DNA of 64,000 bases, from assembly GCA_021820525.1 (NCBI GenBank), contig JAKADM010000001.1:248001-312000 (forward strand), written 5' to 3'. The stretch comes from Thermoplasmata archaeon (GTDB taxonomy: Archaea; Thermoplasmatota; Thermoplasmata; Thermoplasmatales; Thermoplasmataceae). The notes under the pieces were generated by a model that saw nothing but the letters and a program-made list of their open reading frames with translations, did not search any database and was not told where the DNA came from. Below are positions 139 through 51,468 of the stretch, one piece after another. How positions within the stretch are numbered: the stretch's first letter is position 1; every line of letters begins with the position of its first letter. Both the position numbers and the translations under genes were made by a program.

Positions 139-388
139 CTAAATAAAACAAATCGCTTTTAGACTCATTTAATAGTTAGATATCTGGAAAAAGTTATGTT
201 TCCAATTATTTGAAGTTCCTTTCTCAATATTAGAGCATTCAGGATCAGTTAAAATTGTTTTTGTTAAATGTGTGGCATTTTCAATATAATCTAATATTAA
301 ATCATGAAAATTTTAAAATTGTGGGAAGTTAAATGTATTATTATAAGTATTTTTTTCATAAAAAATATTGATTATATTATTTTAGAAA

Positions 389-922
389 TTACCCCTTTAC
401 CAATGCCATATTATGTTTTAGAAATTTTTTAACCTTGGGAGAGATTACAATTCTGCAGTACGGGTTATTCTGGTTTCTTTCGAAGTATTTCATGTGATAG
501 GATTCTGCCGGATAGAAGTTTTTAAACATCTCCACCTGTGTGACAACAGGCTGCCTGAACCTTCCAGATTCCCTTAGTTCTTTCATATAATTTTCAACAG
601 ATTCCCTCTGGGCAGGACTCATCGCAATAATAATGGATCTGTATTGAGTTCCAACATCTGCCCCCTGCCTGTTAAGTGTAGTTGGATCATGGATTTCGAA
701 GAATATATCCAGTATTTGATCAAGAGATATGGCATTCTCATTAAATTTCAATTTTACCACTTCCGCGTGCCCTGTTTTATCCGTACATACATCCTCATAG
801 GAAGGATTGGGGAAGTCTCCACCGGAATATCCGGGGATCACTTCATCCACGCCCTTAACCATTCTAAATATGGCCTCCGTGCACCAGAAGCAGCCTCCGC
901 CAAGAATGATTTCACTGCTCAT
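389..922 (-). CDS. msrA: peptide methionine-(S)-S-oxide reductase MsrA
   Basis: Reduces the S epimer of methionine sulfoxide in proteins and free methionine in the cytoplasm. The N-terminus has the family motif GGGCFWC with the catalytic Cys in GCFW, followed by the conserved blocks GYSGG, YEDVC and HAEVVK and, near the middle, [21 protein letters not shown]-type sequence; length is about 177 residues, normal for the family. I choose the ATG at 922 over the TTG at 940 because a GGAGG ribosome site lies a few bases upstream of 922. The start overlaps the end of msrB by 11 bases, so the two are translationally coupled in an msrB-msrA operon. Confident identification. Confidence 0.95.
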
Positions 923-1286
923 TTTGATCCTCCGGCACAAAAATTAACGAAATAGAATTTACACAATGTCTCGTATTCTTTGGTGTAAATCCTTCGCCAA
1001 GAAATACATGTCCAAGATGAGCCCCACAGTTTGCACACTGTATCTCGGTTCTGTATCCGTCCCTGTCAGGAAGTCTCTTCACCGCCCCGGGTATTTCCTG
1101 GTCAAAGCTAGGCCATCCGCAGTGTGCGTCAAATTTGGAATCTGATGCGTAAAGTGGGGTTCCACATCTTTTGCATACATATTTGCCCTTTCTAAAGTTC
1201 TTTTCATATTCTCCGGAAAAAGGTCTCTCTGTACCTTTGTACAATATTACCCTTTCCTCTTCCTTTGTAAGTTTTCTATACTCCAT
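912..1286 (-). CDS. msrB: peptide methionine-(R)-S-oxide reductase MsrB
   Basis: Reduces the R epimer of protein-bound methionine sulfoxide. At 124 residues it is a compact stand-alone MsrB. Two CxxC pairs (CKRC near residue 40, CANC near 85) form the structural zinc site. GWPSFD, HLGHVF and the active-site block RHCVNS with the catalytic Cys are all present. It is the first gene of the pair and overlaps msrA by 11 bases. Together they repair both sulfoxide epimers. Confidence 0.95.
926..933 (-). promoter_or_regulatory. Shine-Dalgarno site deciding the msrA start
   Basis: On the minus strand GGAGGATC ends a few bases before ATG 922. It lies inside the end of msrB and supports the downstream ATG as the true msrA start. 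Confidence 0.6.
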
Positions 1287-1369
1287 AATTTTACCTATTT
1301 AAACAAAGTAGATTAACACTTATAAAATAATTTTTAAAAATTGCCCAGTTCAAATTTCCCAGAAATGAA

Positions 1370-1558
1370 TTATATTTTTTCGACAATCTGATTCTTCATC
1401 TCTTCAAGTTTTGGATCATCTTCCTGAAGATTGTGTTCATGCTGGGCATGAAGTCTAATGTGATGGAAGAGATCTTCCTTGCTGTCAGCCTCTACGTGAA
1501 ATCCGCACTTAAAACCTGTGTCCTCACATTTATACCTGAATTTTCCCATTTCTATCAA
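1370..1558 (-). CDS. DUF1059-like small protein
   Basis: A 62-residue protein with the DUF1059 layout: an N-terminal beta strand with two cysteines (CEDTGFKCGF, about residues 11-20), then a helix carrying HH and the His-rich HAQHEH. This Cys/His arrangement could bind metal, but no function has been established for the family as far as I know. It may start at Met1 or Met4. It stands alone, with a TATA-like AT-rich stretch just upstream (1560-1600). Confidence 0.65.
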   Translation of the reverse strand: MIEMGKFRYKCEDTGFKCGFHVEADSKEDLFHHIRLHAQHEHNLQEDDPKLEEMKNQIVEKI

Positions 1559-1613
1559 TATATGATACTAAAAGGAGATAAAAAGCTTTATGGATTTTAA
1601 AATAAAAATAAAA

Positions 1614-2504
1614 TTAATTTACCATTTCCAGATATTTTCTTTCGATCAGATTTGTTGGCTCTGCCCATTTTAACCTTATCCCATTTCTTTGGATAAGGGA
1701 AATAACACCATCATTATCCATATCATCGGGTAGAGTTAAATTTACATACTCTTTTCCCTCATATTCAACCCTGACACCTGATCTTTCCAGAAATGAAAAG
1801 TCTGACATTACGTAGGGTGTGACCCTCATCATTTTTGCATCCGTTTCATTCTTCATTTCCAGCTTTTTTTCCCCTCCATTGATTATGACCACTCGGTTTG
1901 CTATTTCTCTTGCTTCTGAAATTAGATGTGTGCTGAAAAGTATGGTCTTTCCATGCTTCCTGTTGAGGTTTCTTATGATCTCCACAAATTCCCTCATTCC
2001 TCTGGGATCAAGTCCAAAGGTTGGTTCATCTAGAATCAGAATCTTTGGATCCATTGCCATGGAACAGGCAAGAGCAAGCCTCTGTTTCATTCCCCTGGAA
2101 TACTGCCCTGTTTTTCTATCCATGAAATTATTCATTCTAAGAAGGTCGGTGAGCCTGTTTACCTCACTCTTTATCATTTCCCTGTCTGCTCCCTTAACTT
2201 TGCAGACATAAGAGAGAACTTCCTTTCCATTTAAATAAGGATAAAATTCCGGCAGTTCTATCAGGGGCCCTACTGAAGATAGTGCGCCCATTGGATCCTC
2301 GTCAACCCTCTTTCCATTGATCTCAACAAAGCCAGACGAAGGGTGTACAACGTTGGTCGAAATCTTCAAAAATGTGCTTTTTCCTGCCCCATTTGGTCCT
2401 AAAAGGACGACACAATCTCCTGAATTGATCTCAATCTCAAAGTTTTTGAGTGCTTCGAGCCTTCCATACCTTTTGGAAAGACCTTTGGCTTTCATTTCTA
2501 TCAT
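1614..2504 (-). CDS. ABC transporter ATP-binding protein
   Basis: The nucleotide-binding subunit of an ABC-2 type exporter. The Walker A loop GPNGAGKST is at residues 36-44, the signature YSRGMKQ near 135, Walker B ILILDEP near 156 with a D-loop GLDPRG, and the H-loop STHL near 190. A C-terminal extension of about 80 residues follows the ATPase core, as in CcmA/DrrA-type proteins. It begins directly after the stop of the permease gene, with no gap, so the two are one operon. The substrate cannot be told from sequence. Confidence 0.92.
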   Translation of the reverse strand: MIEMKAKGLSKRYGRLEALKNFEIEINSGDCVVLLGPNGAGKSTFLKISTNVVHPSSGFVEINGKRVDEDPMGALSSVGPLIELPEFYPYLNGKEVLSYVCKVKGADREMIKSEVNRLTDLLRMNNFMDRKTGQYSRGMKQRLALACSMAMDPKILILDEPTFGLDPRGMREFVEIIRNLNRKHGKTILFSTHLISEAREIANRVVIINGGEKKLEMKNETDAKMMRVTPYVMSDFSFLERSGVRVEYEGKEYVNLTLPDDMDNDGVISLIQRNGIRLKWAEPTNLIERKYLEMVN

Positions 2505-3347
2505 TTATTTCACCTCTTTTCGTTCAAACAGAATAGCTGTTATTCCCAAAGATATAAGGAAATAAAGGAACATTATGAGCGCATTGCTGACCATGGAAGA
2601 ATAGCCTGCAGGCGCAGGATTAACCGCGACCGTTGTTATACCAAATGTAAGGTTTATAAATACCCTGTATGTTATGGATGCAGCCTGATTCAGAAGATAG
2701 TAAGGTACAGTCTTGTAAAGCAACTCTATGACAATGGTTGCAGCGTTCAATACGAGAAGGTAGATGATTAAAACTGATATGTACGCATATGTATTCTTAT
2801 TAAAGATGCTGCTTATCAAAAAGGTGACTGCGGATATGGCAAATACAAAGACAAAAGTCAGCAATATACTATAAAATATCTGCGGTATTATCCCCCCAAA
2901 CAGGTAGTAAAAAACCGATAATTGAATAACGGAATAGGTTATTACAATAAGGATTGTTACTGAAACTGAGGCGAAAAACTTTCCTAATAGCAGTACTATT
3001 CTGGGAATGGGAAGAGTGAAAATATGGAATGCCGTTTTACTCTCAATCTCACTTGATATGGCAGGTGATCCAAAAAATACTGAAGCGAAGACAGGGAGGT
3101 TGGAAAGAATGAACCCCCATAAATACGCAAGTGCCAGCTCATTTACGTGGGAGCCTGTAAGATTCAAATGAGCCCTACTTATAAATGTTGATAAGTCGTT
3201 AATATATCTGAATGAAAGGTATGTAAGGAGGATTGCCACAACGACTGAAATAAAGAACATAAGGTAGAAACTCTTTGACCTATAGTAATTTCTTAAATAG
3301 TATAGATATGTGTCTTTCATTAAAACTGCTCTATTTACCATTACCAC
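2505..3347 (-). CDS. ABC-2 type transporter permease
   Basis: A 280-residue integral membrane protein with about six hydrophobic segments: the first near residues 25-48, then a loop, then five more between about 90 and 275. The pattern and the block SSEIESKTAFHIFTLPI before a membrane helix are typical of ABC-2 permeases, where this amphipathic segment precedes TM2-3. It ends in RKEVK and abuts the ATPase gene, which is translated from the next base. It forms the membrane channel of the exporter. It could also carry a sodium/drug-export function; the sequence does not say. Confidence 0.85.
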   Translation of the reverse strand: MVMVNRAVLMKDTYLYYLRNYYRSKSFYLMFFISVVVAILLTYLSFRYINDLSTFISRAHLNLTGSHVNELALAYLWGFILSNLPVFASVFFGSPAISSEIESKTAFHIFTLPIPRIVLLLGKFFASVSVTILIVITYSVIQLSVFYYLFGGIIPQIFYSILLTFVFVFAISAVTFLISSIFNKNTYAYISVLIIYLLVLNAATIVIELLYKTVPYYLLNQAASITYRVFINLTFGITTVAVNPAPAGYSSMVSNALIMFLYFLISLGITAILFERKEVK

Positions 3348-46927: not shown

Positions 46928-47344
46928 ATGAAATATGCAATAGACGGTGAATTTATAATAGTAAAGATGGAGGCAGAGGATGACCTTCTAGCCTCCATAG
47001 AGAAGGTCGCAAAGGAGACAGAAATTAAGGCTGGCTTTGTCATGTCAGGGATTGGAGGTGTGAAGAACCTGGAGATTGGTTCGCTGAAAGGAAAGACCCA
47101 TGTGAGGGAGAGAATAGATGAGGTTCAGGAAATAGTTTCCCTTTCCGGTTCCATATCTGAGGATGACCCCGTATTGCACATTCATATTTCAGTGGCCGGA
47201 ATTTCCCATCATGCCTTTGGCGGTCATCTCTTTATGGGAACTGTTTACCCCTTCGCAGAAATAGTGATTAAAAAGTTCCCCAATATCAAAATGAAGAGGA
47301 AGTTGAATGAGAACAGCTCCTTTAAGGAGCTGGAATTTTCATAA
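46928..47344 (+). CDS. PPC/DUF296-domain protein
   Basis: 138 residues. VMSGIGGVKNLEIG and LHIHISVAGISHHAFGGHLF are characteristic of the PPC domain; the His-rich motif (H-x-H and GGH) may bind zinc. Family members in plants bind DNA; in archaea and bacteria the role is unclear. TTATTATATG lies about 25 bases before the ATG. It meets the dehydrogenase gene (2-base gap) convergently. Confidence 0.85.
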   Translation: MKYAIDGEFIIVKMEAEDDLLASIEKVAKETEIKAGFVMSGIGGVKNLEIGSLKGKTHVRERIDEVQEIVSLSGSISEDDPVLHIHISVAGISHHAFGGHLFMGTVYPFAEIVIKKFPNIKMKRKLNENSSFKELEFS

Positions 47345-47346
47345 AA

Positions 47347-48396
47347 TTACTCATCATTTATAATTGACAGGATAAGTTCCCTGTGCCATTCTTTCTTTTC
47401 CCTTAATTTCGAAAGTATATAATCCACATCCTTCTGTCCCACATTATAATCCTTCAGGCTCCTCTTCAGACCCAGGGAATTGATGAACGACCTTACAAGA
47501 AAGGCTGCATTTTCAGGGTCCTCCTTTTGAGGATTATTTCCGGTGATTGTTGCAGCAATCATGCTCATCTCCTCTGGGTACATCTTCGCATAATATTCCA
47601 TAACCTTTGGAAGTGTTATGCACGATGTTATGCCATGGGGAATCTCAAATTTTGCCCCAAGAACCTTTCCAAGATTATGGCTCACACCCATAGGTGAATC
47701 ATAAACCTGGAAGTAGGAATACCAGGAAGCAATTTGACACCTGAGCCTTGATTCAAGATCGCTGGATGAAAGGTTGTTGAAAAGAATCCTTATGGCCTCA
47801 AGTGCAGCAGTCCTTGAAATATCCAATATGTTTGGCTGTATGATTGTTTCCACTGCGTGATCAAGCGATCTTATACCGGTGGATCGCCACAGAACGTCGG
47901 GAGTTTCTCTTGTAAATTCAGGATCGAGAATGACCATATTTGGAGTTATTCTCTTATCTCTTATGCCCTCCTTCTCTCCCCCTATGGTGTATCCTGCAAT
48001 ATGGGAAAATTCTGAGGCCGATAGGGTGGTAGGAATGGCTATGTGCAATATATTCAGATCATAATAGTATTTTATAACCTTGGCCGCGTCGGTAACGCTT
48101 CCTCCCCCAATAGATATGATGCCGTTGCATCCCCTGTTCCTGTAAAGTTCAGTTGCGTGTTCAATTTCTTCCATTGGGGAATGCTGTGTAATCTGGTTCA
48201 TTATGGCATATTCAACCCCCAGTGTATTAATGAATGCATTGAACGATTTTGTTTCGGAAACTGATTTGCTTGTTAATATGAGCACATTCCTTATCTTATG
48301 CTGGCTCAATATGGAGTTGATCTTTGATGACGCATTCTGTCCGTACAGGATTTTATCTATGGGAAGATAGTTAAATTCTTCAATCAAGAGTACCAC
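47347..48396 (-). CDS. maleylacetate reductase-like iron-containing dehydrogenase
   Basis: 349 residues of the Fe-dependent alcohol dehydrogenase superfamily. GGGSVTDAAKVIKYY binds NAD(P); metal-binding His occur in RSLDHAVETI and SHNLGKVLGAKFEIPHG. IPTTLSASEF, then ILDPEFTRETP and STGIRSLDHAVE are close to maleylacetate reductase. The gene overlaps the homogentisate dioxygenase gene by 13 bases and is last in a four-gene aromatic operon. It might reduce the ring-cleavage product; that is inference. A GldA-type role is possible but its TLSASEF block argues for MAR. Confidence 0.75.
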   Translation of the reverse strand: MVLLIEEFNYLPIDKILYGQNASSKINSILSQHKIRNVLILTSKSVSETKSFNAFINTLGVEYAIMNQITQHSPMEEIEHATELYRNRGCNGIISIGGGSVTDAAKVIKYYYDLNILHIAIPTTLSASEFSHIAGYTIGGEKEGIRDKRITPNMVILDPEFTRETPDVLWRSTGIRSLDHAVETIIQPNILDISRTAALEAIRILFNNLSSSDLESRLRCQIASWYSYFQVYDSPMGVSHNLGKVLGAKFEIPHGITSCITLPKVMEYYAKMYPEEMSMIAATITGNNPQKEDPENAAFLVRSFINSLGLKRSLKDYNVGQKDVDYILSKLREKKEWHRELILSIINDE

Positions 48397-49526
48397 GACT
48401 TCATATAGTTTTTATCATCAATAATCTTTCCCACATCTGTAAGAAGCAATGGGTCATAGGTTTCAATCATCACTGCAACCTCATCTGTGCTGTCCTTTCC
48501 GATGGAAGATTCCACAGCTCCGGGCTGGGGTCCATGGGTTAAGCCCCTCACATGCAATGTCACCGATCCTGGTTCAATACCTTTCCTGCTCATGAAATTT
48601 CCTGAAGAATAAAATAGGAACTCATCCACGTCTATATTGTTGTGGTAATAGGATATGGGTATGCTCCTTGGATGGAAATCAAAAAGCCTTGGGAGAAAGG
48701 TTGCAACCATCATGGATTTGGATGAAAATGTTTCATGGACAGGTGGTGGCTGGTGAAGCTTTCCCACAATTGGAGCCATTGATTTTACATTTATGGCAAA
48801 TGGGAAAAGGTAGCCATCCCACCCAACCACATCCATTGGACTTCTATCAAACTCCTCAACCACATACCTGTCTGAATATTCCACATAAAGATTGAACTTC
48901 CCTTCCGATATATGGGGCTTTCCAAGAATTGGGTGGCGGATGTCCCTTGTATAATAGGGCGTGCCCTCTTTGAGCTGGCCATATCTGTTTATGTACCTGT
49001 CTGGTATTTTGAGATCATCCATTGTATTTAAAATCAGGAAATATGAATCCTTTGTGTATTCCATTTTGAACATCAGGCCTTTTGGAACATAGACATAGTC
49101 GCCCTGTCTGAATTCCAGTTCCCCTATTGGGCATATCAATTTGCCTTCCCCTACATGGACAAAAAACAGCATTTCGTAAAGAGCGTTTCTGTAAAAATCT
49201 TGATTTGTCTTTTCTGGCCTGAAAATCTGTATCTGCACTCTACTGTTTGCAAGTATGGTTTTTCTACCATCGATCAGATCGCCATATGGTTCCAGATTTT
49301 GAGTTTTCAAATGGCGATGTATTGACGGTTCGTCCAACAATCTGTATCCCTGCTTCTGTTCTGTCCTGTAACCCCTTATCCTGGTGGGTTCATTGAGATG
49401 ATATATTAACGAATATACCCCCTCAAAGCTGTCCTCCCCAAAAAGCTCCTCCCTTCTTAAATTTTCCTTACTGTCATAGGTATGCCTGCTCTCAGGCACC
49501 TCTCCCTGCTTAACATAAAACACCAT
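48384..49526 (-). CDS. hmgA: homogentisate 1,2-dioxygenase
   Basis: Opens homogentisate to maleylacetoacetate with Fe(II) and oxygen. 380 residues, somewhat shorter than bacterial forms (about 430). The iron-binding block YYHNNIDVDEFLFYSSGNF (His and Glu near 285-296) and the His in LTHGPQPG (near 331) are present, with PPPVHETF before them. It follows the FAH gene by one base, with SD-like GGTGAT before its ATG, and overlaps the dehydrogenase gene downstream. Placement between HPPD/FAH and MAR strongly supports the call. Confidence 0.92.
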   Translation of the reverse strand: MVFYVKQGEVPESRHTYDSKENLRREELFGEDSFEGVYSLIYHLNEPTRIRGYRTEQKQGYRLLDEPSIHRHLKTQNLEPYGDLIDGRKTILANSRVQIQIFRPEKTNQDFYRNALYEMLFFVHVGEGKLICPIGELEFRQGDYVYVPKGLMFKMEYTKDSYFLILNTMDDLKIPDRYINRYGQLKEGTPYYTRDIRHPILGKPHISEGKFNLYVEYSDRYVVEEFDRSPMDVVGWDGYLFPFAINVKSMAPIVGKLHQPPPVHETFSSKSMMVATFLPRLFDFHPRSIPISYYHNNIDVDEFLFYSSGNFMSRKGIEPGSVTLHVRGLTHGPQPGAVESSIGKDSTDEVAVMIETYDPLLLTDVGKIIDDKNYMKSWYS

Positions 49527-49527
49527 A

Positions 49528-50382
49528 TCATATCACCCTGTTTTCCAATACACCAATGGACTCTGATTCTATTCTCACCAGATCTCCTTTTTTAATCCAG
49601 TCCTGATCACCATTATTCCTTTCGAACTTGCACCCACCAGGAAATGTTCCCGTCATGATTACATCTCCCCTTCTTAAATTTGATTCCATAGATGCATGGG
49701 AGATCAGTTCTGCAATTGACCAGTATATCTGGTTAAGGTTAGAATCTGAAAAGGGCTGACCATTAATGTATGATCTGACCCTTATGTTAAAAGATTTCCC
49801 ATCATAAAAATTCATTATCTCTTCAATGGGTGTAATATAAGGACCCATGCTCGTTGCAAAATCCTTTGATTTCGATGGCCCAAGATTCAGCTTTGATTCA
49901 GTGATCCATATATCCCTGGCACTCCAGTCATTCATTATGGTGACACCTGCAATGAACTCCAGTGCATCTTCCTTTCTTATATTCCTCCCGTTCTTACCAA
50001 TTATGAAACCAAGTTCAACCTCCAGATCCATTCTTCTGGTAAAGGATGGATAGGGTACATCCATCTTTGAACCGTAAAGGCTGGAATTGCTGGTATAGTA
50101 GTATACCGGAATTTCATACCATTCCTTAAGCATCTCCAGGCCCCTGGTTTTTCTGGAATTTTTTGCATGCTCCTCAAAGGCATAGAAGTCACGTATCTGT
50201 CCCGGTGAGTCGAGAGGTGGCATGAAAAATTCCGGATCTCCCAGCCGATCCATGCCTCCATTATCCTTTAGATTGAGGAGTTCTATGGTATCCTCCTTTC
50301 TGTCAGATGCGTCGAAGAAATTATTTCCATCGTAAATGAATTTTTTAACTTTTCCCTCGAATGAAGCTATGCCTGCCTTCAT
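49528..50382 (-). CDS. fumarylacetoacetate hydrolase (FAH) family protein
   Basis: 284 residues. The FAH-fold acidic core LEVELGFIIGKNG (Glu), then MNDWSARDIWITESKLNLGPSKSKDFATSMGP and GDVIMTGTFPGG are all characteristic. It is expected to split fumarylacetoacetate or a related 3,5-diketo acid. It directly abuts the HPPD stop (TAAATG) and precedes hmgA by one base. The exact substrate in this operon (maleyl-, fumaryl- or succinylacetoacetate) is open. Confidence 0.9.
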   Translation of the reverse strand: MKAGIASFEGKVKKFIYDGNNFFDASDRKEDTIELLNLKDNGGMDRLGDPEFFMPPLDSPGQIRDFYAFEEHAKNSRKTRGLEMLKEWYEIPVYYYTSNSSLYGSKMDVPYPSFTRRMDLEVELGFIIGKNGRNIRKEDALEFIAGVTIMNDWSARDIWITESKLNLGPSKSKDFATSMGPYITPIEEIMNFYDGKSFNIRVRSYINGQPFSDSNLNQIYWSIAELISHASMESNLRRGDVIMTGTFPGGCKFERNNGDQDWIKKGDLVRIESESIGVLENRVI

Positions 50383-51468
50383 TTACAGATTTCCCCTTCT
50401 TGCCTGATCTCTCTCTATGGACTCAAAAAGTGCCTTAAAGTTCCCCTTTCCAAAGGATGTTGCCCCCTTTCTCTGAATTATCTCATAGAAGAAGGTTGGC
50501 CTGTCACCTGTTGGTTTTGTAAATATTTGCAGCAAATAACCGTCGTCATCCCTGTCCACAAGAATGTTATATTTTTTCAATTCGTTGAAATCCTCATCGA
50601 TTTTTCCTACCCTCTCTGCAAGATTGACATAGTAGCTTTCCGGTGTTGACTGAAACTCGATCCCCATTGCCTTCATCTGCTTTACAGTGCTTATAATATC
50701 ATCTGTGTGAAGGGCAATGTGCTGTACCCCAGGCATATGATAATAATCAAGATATTCCTGAATCTGTGATTTCTTCTTTCCCTTTGCCGGTTCATTTATG
50801 GGAAAAACGATCTTTCTGTTGTTATATTGCACCACCTTTGACCTCAATGCTGTATATTCTGTACTGATATCCTTATCGTCAAAGCTTATCAAAGGTTCAA
50901 AACCCATTCCGTCCACATAATAGTTTACCCAGCTATCCATCTTATTCTCTTCCACGTTTCCCACAATGTGGTCAAATCTCCTGATGCCCGCATCCTTCTG
51001 GGTTTCATCATCAACCTTTACAAACCCTGGCAGATATTCTCCATCATATTCCCCAGTGTCAATTAAAGAATGTATGGTTTCCCCATATGTATATGCGGTT
51101 GATCTATATATTGATCCATTGTCGGTCTTAATCCTTTGAGGTTCGTCAACCCTCACAATCTTTCTTTCCCTAAATTCTGATATGGTTTCGTTCAGGTCAT
51201 TAACCTTTATGGATATGTCCTTCACGCCGTCGCCGTGAAGTTTAACGTGTTCTGCAATGAGTGAATCAGGCATTAAGGAGTTTGTAACCATCACTCTAAC
51301 CTTCCCCTGTTCAAGCAGGTAGGATACCCTGTCCCTCACACCAGTCTCAGGCCCTGCGTAAGCCAGAACCTTAAAACCCAATCCGAATTTATGGTAATAG
51401 GCCCATTGCCTGGCTGATCCGACATAAAATTCCACATAGTCTACCTTTTCCAAAGCCTTGGCACTCAT
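50383..51468 (-). CDS. hpd: 4-hydroxyphenylpyruvate dioxygenase
   Basis: Converts 4-hydroxyphenylpyruvate to homogentisate. 361 residues of two VOC folds. Iron ligands are the His of FDHIVGNV (about 165), the His of GVQHIALHTDD (about 246) and the Glu of FFYEIIQRKG (about 329); the C-terminal FEIIQRKG-GNFKALFESIERDQ pattern is diagnostic. First gene of the operon; a TATA-like GATAATAT lies at 51490-51499, about 27 bases before ATG 51468. Confidence 0.95.
   Translation of the reverse strand: MSAKALEKVDYVEFYVGSARQWAYYHKFGLGFKVLAYAGPETGVRDRVSYLLEQGKVRVMVTNSLMPDSLIAEHVKLHGDGVKDISIKVNDLNETISEFRERKIVRVDEPQRIKTDNGSIYRSTAYTYGETIHSLIDTGEYDGEYLPGFVKVDDETQKDAGIRRFDHIVGNVEENKMDSWVNYYVDGMGFEPLISFDDKDISTEYTALRSKVVQYNNRKIVFPINEPAKGKKKSQIQEYLDYYHMPGVQHIALHTDDIISTVKQMKAMGIEFQSTPESYYVNLAERVGKIDEDFNELKKYNILVDRDDDGYLLQIFTKPTGDRPTFFYEIIQRKGATSFGKGNFKALFESIERDQARRGNL

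Follow-up and report, generated by a model that had tools for sequence, protein, structure and literature searches.

A homogentisate operon with a maleylacetate reductase-like fourth gene in an acid-loving archaeon: a candidate reductive bypass of the glutathione-dependent isomerase

A Cuniculiplasma-like archaeal genome carries a compact tyrosine-degradation operon, hpd-fah-hgd-FeADH, whose last gene encodes a protein of the metal-free maleylacetate reductase (MAR) branch of the iron-containing alcohol dehydrogenases (FeADH), and which may take the place of the glutathione-dependent maleylacetoacetate isomerase of the textbook pathway. In the reading considered best supported, at a probability of about 50%, this protein is a maleylacetoacetate reductase producing succinylacetoacetate, which the fumarylacetoacetase (FAH) homologue would cleave to succinate and acetoacetate; both activities are inferred from sequence alone.

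Architecture of the operon

The operon occupies positions 51468-47347, on the minus strand, of the window, i.e., the whole 64,000-nucleotide stretch of DNA that was analysed, and comprises four open reading frames joined end to end. The first-pass annotation had described HPPD, FAH and homogentisate dioxygenase genes followed, with a 13-base overlap, by a gene resembling maleylacetate reductase, with no isomerase seen, and this observation is confirmed. The first gene, hpd (50383-51468, minus strand, 361 residues), encodes a 4-hydroxyphenylpyruvate dioxygenase scoring 405.7 bits against TIGR01263, above the cut-off of 277, and is the first gene of hpd-fah-hgd in 19 of 20 loci mapped, the twentieth, in genome G018 (50% complete), being frameshifted.

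The second gene (49528-50382, minus strand, 284 residues) encodes a short hydrolase of the fumarylacetoacetase fold (PF01557, 177.6 bits) that lacks the FAH N-terminal domain (PF09298 not found). The protein remains far under the NCBIfam cut-offs for both fumarylacetoacetase (TIGR01266, 84.7 against 375.3 bits) and the HpaG-type isomerase/decarboxylases (TIGR02303/TIGR02305, 101.7 against 276.4, the HpaG-C-term score, and 71.0 against 228.65 bits), scoring higher against HpaG than against FAH, with HpaG 1gtt as the best PDB match (3.4e-26). Nevertheless, the catalytic and metal-site residues of FAH are preserved: His72 aligns with mouse FAH His133, Asp152 and Arg156 with Asp233 and Arg237, and Lys173 with Lys253, whereas Glu254, located beyond the end of this alignment, is taken to correspond to Glu364; these residues are invariant in 17 of 17 aligned rows. 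Position 170 of the hydrolase (Ser or Ala) seemed to follow the presence of the FeADH, but this was rejected because G015 (FeADH present) has Ala, G017 and G035 (FeADH absent) have Ser, and only two independent pairs lie on supported branches of a FAH+HGD tree that left out G018 (frameshifted hgd) and G033, G054 and G056 (hgd cut by contig ends). A PADLOC search of the FAH homologue returned nothing.

The third gene, hgd/hmgA (48384-49526, minus strand, 380 residues), encodes a short, divergent homogentisate 1,2-dioxygenase, with the HgmA_N and HgmA_C domains above the Pfam cut-offs (36.5 and 22.0 bits) but a score far under the TIGR01015 cut-off (59.2 against 510.75 bits). The two PDB matches are the homogentisate dioxygenases 3zds and 1ey2, and His295, Glu302, His325 and His331 are invariant in 14 of 14 sequences, with His295, Glu302 and His331, the Fe ligands, aligned with 3zds.

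The fourth gene (47347-48396, minus strand, 349 residues from the GTG at 48396) encodes an FeADH (PF00465, 104.7 bits; PF25137, 83.8 bits). The 13-base overlap with hgd exists if the GTG is the start, whereas a TTG at 48387 gives a 4-base TTGA overlap; because the NTGA overlap is what is conserved, in 19 of 21 loci, the TTG is the likelier start and 4 bases the likelier overlap. The best solved relatives are 9ph0, named MAR1 (E 1.8e-44), followed by 3jzd, 3w5s and 3hl0, the last two named maleylacetate reductase, whereas the best NCBIfam hits, all far under cut-off, are ErcA and lactaldehyde reductase. An AlphaFold2 model (6 sequences, pLDDT 84.8) aligns best with FeADHs, with the MARs (Z 30.7-32) below lactaldehyde reductase (Z 35), so that the predicted fold does not separate MARs from other FeADHs or tell the substrate; the absence of 9ph0 from the 50 rows of this comparison carries no information.

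A metal-free FeADH linked to hgd

MARs work without metal, probably because the ligand Asp is replaced by Asn or Arg (PMC5125639). In the window protein this position is Arg176, and Arg is found in all 19 intact operon proteins aligned (of 24 found; G004, G008, G031, G054 and G056 were not in the alignment, and the G019 homologue is decayed) and in both proteins of a distant family of the phylum, here f42, whereas 8 of 9 other archaeal FeADHs aligned keep Asp. A tree of 38 rows, without G018, places these proteins in a MAR-like clade, split from the metal-dependent FeADHs at 100/99; one unlinked archaeal FeADH (G038, with Lys at the Asp position) also falls on the MAR side, and the grouping with MAR1 and f42 reaches 91/92 and is not starred, MAR1 being a long branch. 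On the other hand, the resemblance to the TfdF/PcpE type is incomplete. His residues occupy the positions of PcpE His172, His237 and His251, mapped through 3jzd, but the signature LHHKLCHTLGG reads VSHNLGKVLGA and the LSTPEQ coenzyme motif is absent from the window protein. Of the residues tested in PcpE (PMC5741723), the essential His172 is conserved but the essential Lys238 is not, the position being variable (N, T, R, L, Q, K, A) although Lys in both f42 proteins and Gly in MAR1; a Lys/Arg at the His241 position may or may not compensate.

A survey of gene order and of GST-type isomerases, proposed in advance as a check, comprised the window's own genome (86% complete) and 60 relatives, 31 of the 61 being at least 90% complete. 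Orthologues of the fourth protein (E below 1e-60 to the window protein) occur in 24 of the 61 genomes, all 24 among the 35 that have hgd; 22 of the 24 lie directly next to it, and in G031 and G056 the two genes are on different contigs, with hgd at a contig end. Among 389 genomes of the phylum, all 15 strict orthologues (E below 1e-100) overlap or abut hgd and none occurs without hgd. The order hpd-fah-hgd-FeADH is conserved in two families of the order, and hgd-FeADH pairing recurs in f42, a third family, where G105 has hgd followed 60 bases later by a MAR-type FeADH and G091 has the two genes 6.5 kb apart on one strand, the proteins being 30-35% identical to that of the window. The gene is under purifying selection, with dN/dS of 0.04-0.08 in five pairs. 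A scan of genome contigs found five close relatives only.

The absence of an isomerase holds for the families searched: maiA (TIGR01262), GST_N_3 (PF13417) and MDMPI_N each matched 0 of 61 genomes, whereas of 14 control genomes 3 matched maiA (1 over cut-off) and 7 matched GST_N_3 (6 over cut-off). Nevertheless, of the 35 hgd-bearing genomes, 9 lack the FeADH with hpd-fah-hgd intact (G017, G020, G021, G024, G025, G029, G030, G035 and G036), G019 keeps only a decayed homologue, and G033 cannot be judged because of a contig end; the 10 genomes without an intact fourth gene have no match to any isomerase family searched. Five of the nine have a distant FeADH elsewhere (27-30% identity) and four have none at E 1e-10. 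In the phylum survey, 15 of 39 hgd genomes have neither an FeADH match nor a match to the uncharacterised family X discussed below. So maleylacetoacetate can be handled without this reductase.

A proposed reductive route and its alternatives

The operon is best explained as a glutathione-free homogentisate pathway with a reductive detour. In this view, HPPD makes homogentisate and HGD opens the ring to maleylacetoacetate; the fourth protein, as a metal-free NAD(P)H-dependent enzyme, reduces the cis C=C of maleylacetoacetate, since maleylacetate and maleylacetoacetate share the cis-4-oxo-2-enoate head that MARs reduce; and the FAH homologue hydrolyses the resulting 3,5-dioxo acid, so that no cis-trans isomerisation, and so no thiol cofactor, would be needed. 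The first-pass annotation had proposed this same route as one possible solution, and its interpretation is partly supported. What the analysis establishes is the gene content, the MAR-like nature of the last gene, its linkage and coupling to hgd, and the absence of maiA and GST_N_3 genes; what remains inferred is every catalytic step, those of HPPD and HGD from family and conserved residues, together with the premise of that annotation that most archaea lack glutathione. In support of the reading, FUM7, a MAR-subfamily protein, is proposed to reduce another alkene (PMC5125639). Against it stand the FeADH-free genomes, the variable Lys238 position, the higher HpaG score of the hydrolase, and the wider context of the subfamily described below. 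In agreement with the annotation, which knew of no such variant route, literature searches disclosed no description of a maleylacetoacetate reductase, nor of a Thermoplasma homogentisate pathway, judged by titles and the beginnings of abstracts.

How organisms without glutathione get past maleylacetoacetate in tyrosine and phenylalanine catabolism is not addressed in the papers retrieved. A reductive bypass would add a branch to a textbook pathway, make succinylacetoacetate, discussed as an unstable by-product when mammalian tyrosine breakdown is blocked (PMC6669923), a normal intermediate in an archaeon, and give a substrate to a branch of the MAR family now annotated mostly as iron alcohol dehydrogenase. 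In a broader version, held at somewhat less than even odds, archaea without glutathione would bypass the isomerase in this manner as one of at least two independent non-GST solutions to the same step in prokaryotes, the other being family X.

Among the alternatives, the one that survives best, although unlikely, is that the FAH homologue hydrolyses maleylacetoacetate directly to maleate and acetoacetate, or acts after spontaneous isomerisation, with the FeADH in an auxiliary role such as removing an excess or side product. This is favoured by the nine genomes with the intact three-gene core, which have no FeADH orthologue and no match to maiA, GST_N_3, MDMPI_N or X. In addition, a cited title states that maleic acid marks human maleylacetoacetate isomerase deficiency (van Vliet 2023, as referenced in PMC11457941), which hints that FAH can cut the cis form, and a glutathione-dependent non-enzymatic isomerisation is described in mammals (PMC6822483). 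However, this reading does not explain the linkage and translational coupling of a MAR-type enzyme to hgd, and maleylpyruvate hydrolase 6jvv is a much weaker match to the hydrolase than mouse FAH (8.5e-5 against 1.7e-18).

Somewhat less likely, the FeADH may reduce a carbonyl or C=C of another pathway compound, such as 4-hydroxyphenylpyruvate, fumarylacetoacetate, acetoacetate or an overflow aldehyde. FeADHs as a whole are mostly alcohol dehydrogenases, and both the NCBIfam hits and the acyl-CoA gene context of four plasmid relatives point this way; nevertheless, loss of the metal ligand argues against ordinary carbonyl reduction in this family (PMC5125639), and the coupling is to hgd, with no hpd or fah recognised beside hgd and FeADH in f42, although the selection of reading frames there also missed hgd in G091. 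A third possibility, that the FeADH is itself a cis-trans isomerase using NAD(H) catalytically and thus keeping the classical fumarylacetoacetate route, is doubtful: it would fill exactly the missing step and suits the FAH-like catalytic residues of the hydrolase, but MARs carry out net reduction and no isomerase is known in this superfamily. Least likely, an unrecognised isomerase unlinked to the operon would serve all Thermoplasmatales with the FeADH as an accessory, which would explain genomes with and without FeADH alike, X showing that undescribed families can lie in these clusters, but X itself matched 0 of 61 genomes (the same query matched 7 of 389), and FeADH presence at the same slot in two families of the order suggests that it is old there, with losses. 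The convergent PCC-domain gene at 46928-47344 was rejected as a replacement isomerase, since its family lies near the operon both with and without the FeADH (11 of 20 loci).

Relation to known pathways and to family X

Compared to the homogentisate pathway with zeta-class GST (MaiA/GSTZ1) and fumarylacetoacetase, the operon shares HPPD, HGD, an FAH-type hydrolase and the entry substrate, but displays a MAR-type FeADH joined to hgd in place of the isomerase, a short single-domain FAH, and a proposed end product of succinate rather than fumarate. Compared to the maleylacetate reductases of hydroxyquinol and chlorocatechol pathways (cd08177; TfdF, PcpE, MacA, GraC; 9ph0 MAR1), the operon partner is hgd and not an intradiol dioxygenase. 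Fungal MARs, including FUM7, are said to contribute to the catabolism of tyrosine among other aromatics (PMC5125639). The tyrosine link in fungi probably runs through hydroxyquinol and maleylacetate, not through homogentisate.

Plasmid relatives do not provide evidence for maleylacetate reduction. Of 1293 records matched, 30 of which were listed, five were viewed: those of Novosphingobium, Cupriavidus, Rhizorhabdus DC-6 and Rhodococcus koreensis lie mainly among acyl-CoA genes, so the subfamily is wider than maleylacetate, although a muconate/chloromuconate cycloisomerase gene lies about 6 kb away in Novosphingobium and the DC-6 gene is annotated maleylacetate reductase, whereas the TfdF-type hit of Paraburkholderia terrae lies beside hydroxyquinol dioxygenase.

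Finally, an unrelated, uncharacterised family, X, lies beside fahA in the homogentisate clusters (hgd-X-fahA) viewed in actinobacteria, Priestia and another archaeal family, here f25, as an extra gene at the same pathway position and with a full-length FAH. X is a candidate for a second, unrelated, non-GST isomerase. In f25, 0 of 5 genomes tested match maiA, and no genome of the 389 has both X and an FeADH match. One member of X shows a weak Pfam match, and GST matches occur in genome G131.

Organization of the operon and features of its fourth gene

The operon lies in a 1.54 Mb assembly (23 contigs, 86% complete) whose nearest named relative found is a Cuniculiplasma MAG, with a 96% identical FeADH. 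Four genes run end to end on the minus strand of the window, comprising (i) hpd (51468-50383), (ii) fah (50382-49528), (iii) hgd (49526-48384), and (iv) the FeADH gene (48396-47347). Family searches confirm the names given in the first-pass annotation; nevertheless, the HGD and the FAH homologue are divergent, short forms well under their equivalog cut-offs, and the FAH homologue scores higher against HpaG-type isomerase/decarboxylases (NCBIfam, 101.7 bits; PDB code 1gtt, 3.4e-26) than against fumarylacetoacetase (84.7 bits; mouse FAH, 1.7e-18). The expected catalytic residues are in place, with His295, Glu302, His325, and His331 of HGD invariant in 14 of 14 aligned homologues, whereas His72, Asp152, Arg156, and Lys173 of the FAH homologue align with His133, Asp233, Arg237, and Lys253 of mouse FAH, these four and Glu254 being invariant in 17 of 17.

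The best PDB matches of the fourth protein are 9ph0, named MAR1 (155.5 bits), 3jzd, and the maleylacetate reductases 3w5s and 3hl0. MARs are metal-free enzymes, probably because the metal-ligand Asp is replaced by Asn or Arg (PMC5125639). In the window protein this position is occupied by Arg176 (numbered from the GTG start), and Arg is found in the 19 intact operon proteins aligned, of 24 found, whereas 8 of 9 other archaeal FeADHs aligned keep the Asp and the ninth, from the genome G038, displays a Lys. A 38-row tree places the operon proteins in a MAR-like clade, which also takes in the G038 protein, separated from the metal-dependent FeADHs (100/99); the grouping with MAR1 and with the proteins of f42, a distant family of the same phylum, has a support of 91/92, MAR1 being a long branch. 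Of the residues probed in the MAR PcpE (PMC5741723), mapped here through its published motif and 3jzd, His172, His237, and His251 are conserved, His241 is Lys or Arg, and Lys238, essential in PcpE, is variable. MAR1 also lacks Lys238, while both f42 proteins have it. The enzyme is thus MAR-like but not of the TfdF/PcpE type.

Linkage to hgd and genomes without the fourth gene

In 61 genomes, comprising that of the window and 60 relatives, hpd over the cut-off and hgd occur in the same 35. A FeADH orthologue (E below 1e-60) occurs in 24 genomes, all of them hgd-bearing; in 22 it lies directly next to hgd, and in the relatives G031 and G056 the two genes are on different contigs, with hgd at a contig end. 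The FeADH start codon overlaps the hgd stop as NTGA in 19 of 21 loci, with G015 and G019 as the exceptions, so the true overlap in the window is probably 4 bases (TTGA) and not the 13 bases proposed in the first-pass annotation. The dN/dS ratio is 0.04-0.08 in five pairs, two of them with near-saturated dS. In addition, a second, fragmentary hpd-hgd-FeADH cluster is found in the same-genus genome G006 (contig C66, about 317-3098), its FeADH being 45% identical to that of the window.

The conservation of this linkage and the lack of a GST-type isomerase, which the annotation had set as points to be checked, were surveyed further. In a phylum sample of 389 genomes, hgd occurs in 39 and FeADH matches (E up to 1e-35) in 29, 18 of them in hgd genomes and all 18 on the same contig as hgd (Fisher p 3e-13; the genomes are related, so this is not a strict probability). 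The 11 FeADH matches without hgd are weak (E 1e-46 to 1e-36), whereas all 15 matches below 1e-100 overlap or abut hgd. Of the other three, that of G019 is decayed, and those of G105 and G091 belong to the distant family f42 and are only 30-35% identical to the window protein; in G105 the FeADH gene follows hgd after 60 bases, and in G091 the two are 6.5 kb apart. Profile searches for maiA (TIGR01262), GST_N_3, and MDMPI_N each returned 0 of 61 genomes, with matches in 3, 7, and 4 of 14 control genomes, respectively. In 20 further genomes of the phylum, maiA gave no match over the cut-off and sub-cut-off matches in two, G131 (4.4e-15) and G119.

On the other hand, nine of the 35 hgd-bearing genomes lack an orthologue of the FeADH with the three-gene core intact, and G033 is cut by a contig end. 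G019 keeps a decayed FeADH in the fourth slot (locus L051, 5339-6376), with a reading frame open for 345 codons although the nucleotide-binding (glycine-rich), Arg, and His motifs are lost. Five of the nine have a distant FeADH elsewhere in the genome (27-30% identity), and four have none at E 1e-10. In two relatives, G021 and G030, the convergent PCC gene that flanks the FeADH gene elsewhere lies directly beside hgd. In the window, this PCC-domain protein (PF03479; 46928-47344) is encoded convergently with the operon, 2 bases from the FeADH stop, and its family lies near the operon in 11 of 20 loci, with and without the FeADH. On an FAH+HGD tree of 31 rows, FeADH presence needs 3 changes, at least 2 of them on supported branches; presence at the same slot in two families suggests loss more than gain. 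The genomes without the fourth gene show that the step can be met otherwise, and the FAH homologue acting directly on maleylacetoacetate, or spontaneous isomerization, are taken as the main possibilities there.

Two other families occur around the operon. A haem-oxygenase-like iron redox protein (PF14518, 91.7 bits for the member in the relative G013, locus L066, ORF 12) has family members near the operon in 12 of 20 loci, and in the relative G051 (locus L062, ORF 7) it is encoded directly upstream of hpd in the same direction. A chlorite-dismutase-family protein (PF06778, 138 bits for the G013 member; L066, ORF 5) is encoded divergently and upstream of hpd, the family being present in 12 of 20 loci.

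Proposed reductive route

Maleylacetoacetate carries the same cis-4-oxo-2-enoate group as maleylacetate. Reduction of that C=C bond would give succinylacetoacetate, a 3,5-dioxo acid that an FAH-type hydrolase could cut to succinate and acetoacetate. The linkage, the residue pattern, the phylogeny, and the absence of the isomerase families searched are shown by the present analysis, whereas every catalytic step of this scheme is inferred. The observation made in the first-pass annotation, a tyrosine-degradation operon ending in a maleylacetate reductase-like gene with no isomerase seen, is real, and the arrangement is conserved and, on sequence evidence, probably functional. Its interpretation, the reductive bypass of the isomerase, is supported only in part, remaining the best single explanation at about even odds.

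The annotation knew of no description of such a route, and literature searches on maleylacetoacetate in archaea, on maleylacetate reductase together with homogentisate, succinylacetoacetate, or maleylacetoacetate, and on a maleylacetoacetate reductase disclosed none either, as judged by titles and the beginnings of abstracts in a collection poor in subscription journals. Fungal MARs are said to contribute to the catabolism of tyrosine, among others (PMC5125639). This contribution probably runs through the hydroxyquinol route. A study of a Thermoplasmatales co-culture reports tyrosine loss and enzymes for the conversion of tyrosine to 4-hydroxyphenylpyruvate, with no mention of homogentisate (PMC8975820), and a study of a Cuniculiplasma co-culture gave nothing on the point (PMC5498576).

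Family X and other homogentisate clusters

A second solution to the same step may exist in the archaeal family f25, which displays the order hpd-hgd-X-fah in G148, G222, and G322, X being an uncharacterized protein family of about 280-340 residues, whereas G136 shows hgd-X-fah at a contig end and in G063 X lies about 8 kb from hgd. The FAH of these clusters is full-length (TIGR01266, 610 bits in G322). X has no Pfam match at E 0.001 in 9 of 9 members (one member matches PF02475 at 0.025), no NCBIfam match at 0.001, and no PDB match below 0.02. In plasmids, X was found in 24 records. Of the five annotated records viewed, X is encoded between hgd and fahA in Rhodococcus rhodochrous, Streptomyces sp. 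Alt3, Pseudonocardia, and Tsukamurella, and between hppD and fahA in Priestia; a sixth record, from Kovacikia, carries no annotation. The members in actinobacteria, Priestia, and f25 lie at L080:2678-3688, L078:6597-7607, L079:5824-6831, L088:8407-9417, L093:6947-7963, L094:4986-5837, L095:4950-5828, L096:4968-5846, and L098:6191-7036 of the stretches viewed. X occurs in 7 of 389 genomes of the phylum, 6 of them among the 39 with hgd and none among the 29 with an FeADH match, and in 0 of the 61 genomes comprising the window's own and its relatives. Invariant residues include Lys185, Arg187, Lys217, His223, Arg227, His238, and Cys321. A role as a non-GST maleylacetoacetate isomerase is suggested for X, by inference, the invariant Cys being one feature of this candidate.

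In plasmids of Rhodococcus oxybenzonivorans and R. opacus (L099:5007-7334 and L100:5001-7320), the gene for an HGD-like cupin dioxygenase is followed at once by that for an α/β hydrolase, with no fahA or X in the incomplete gene table of the stretch shown, perhaps a third way of dealing with the ring-cleavage product. Finally, four plasmid homologues of the FeADH (loci L070-L073), one of them annotated as maleylacetate reductase, lie mainly among acyl-CoA synthetase, CoA-transferase, or acyl-CoA dehydrogenase genes, so that annotation is doubtful.
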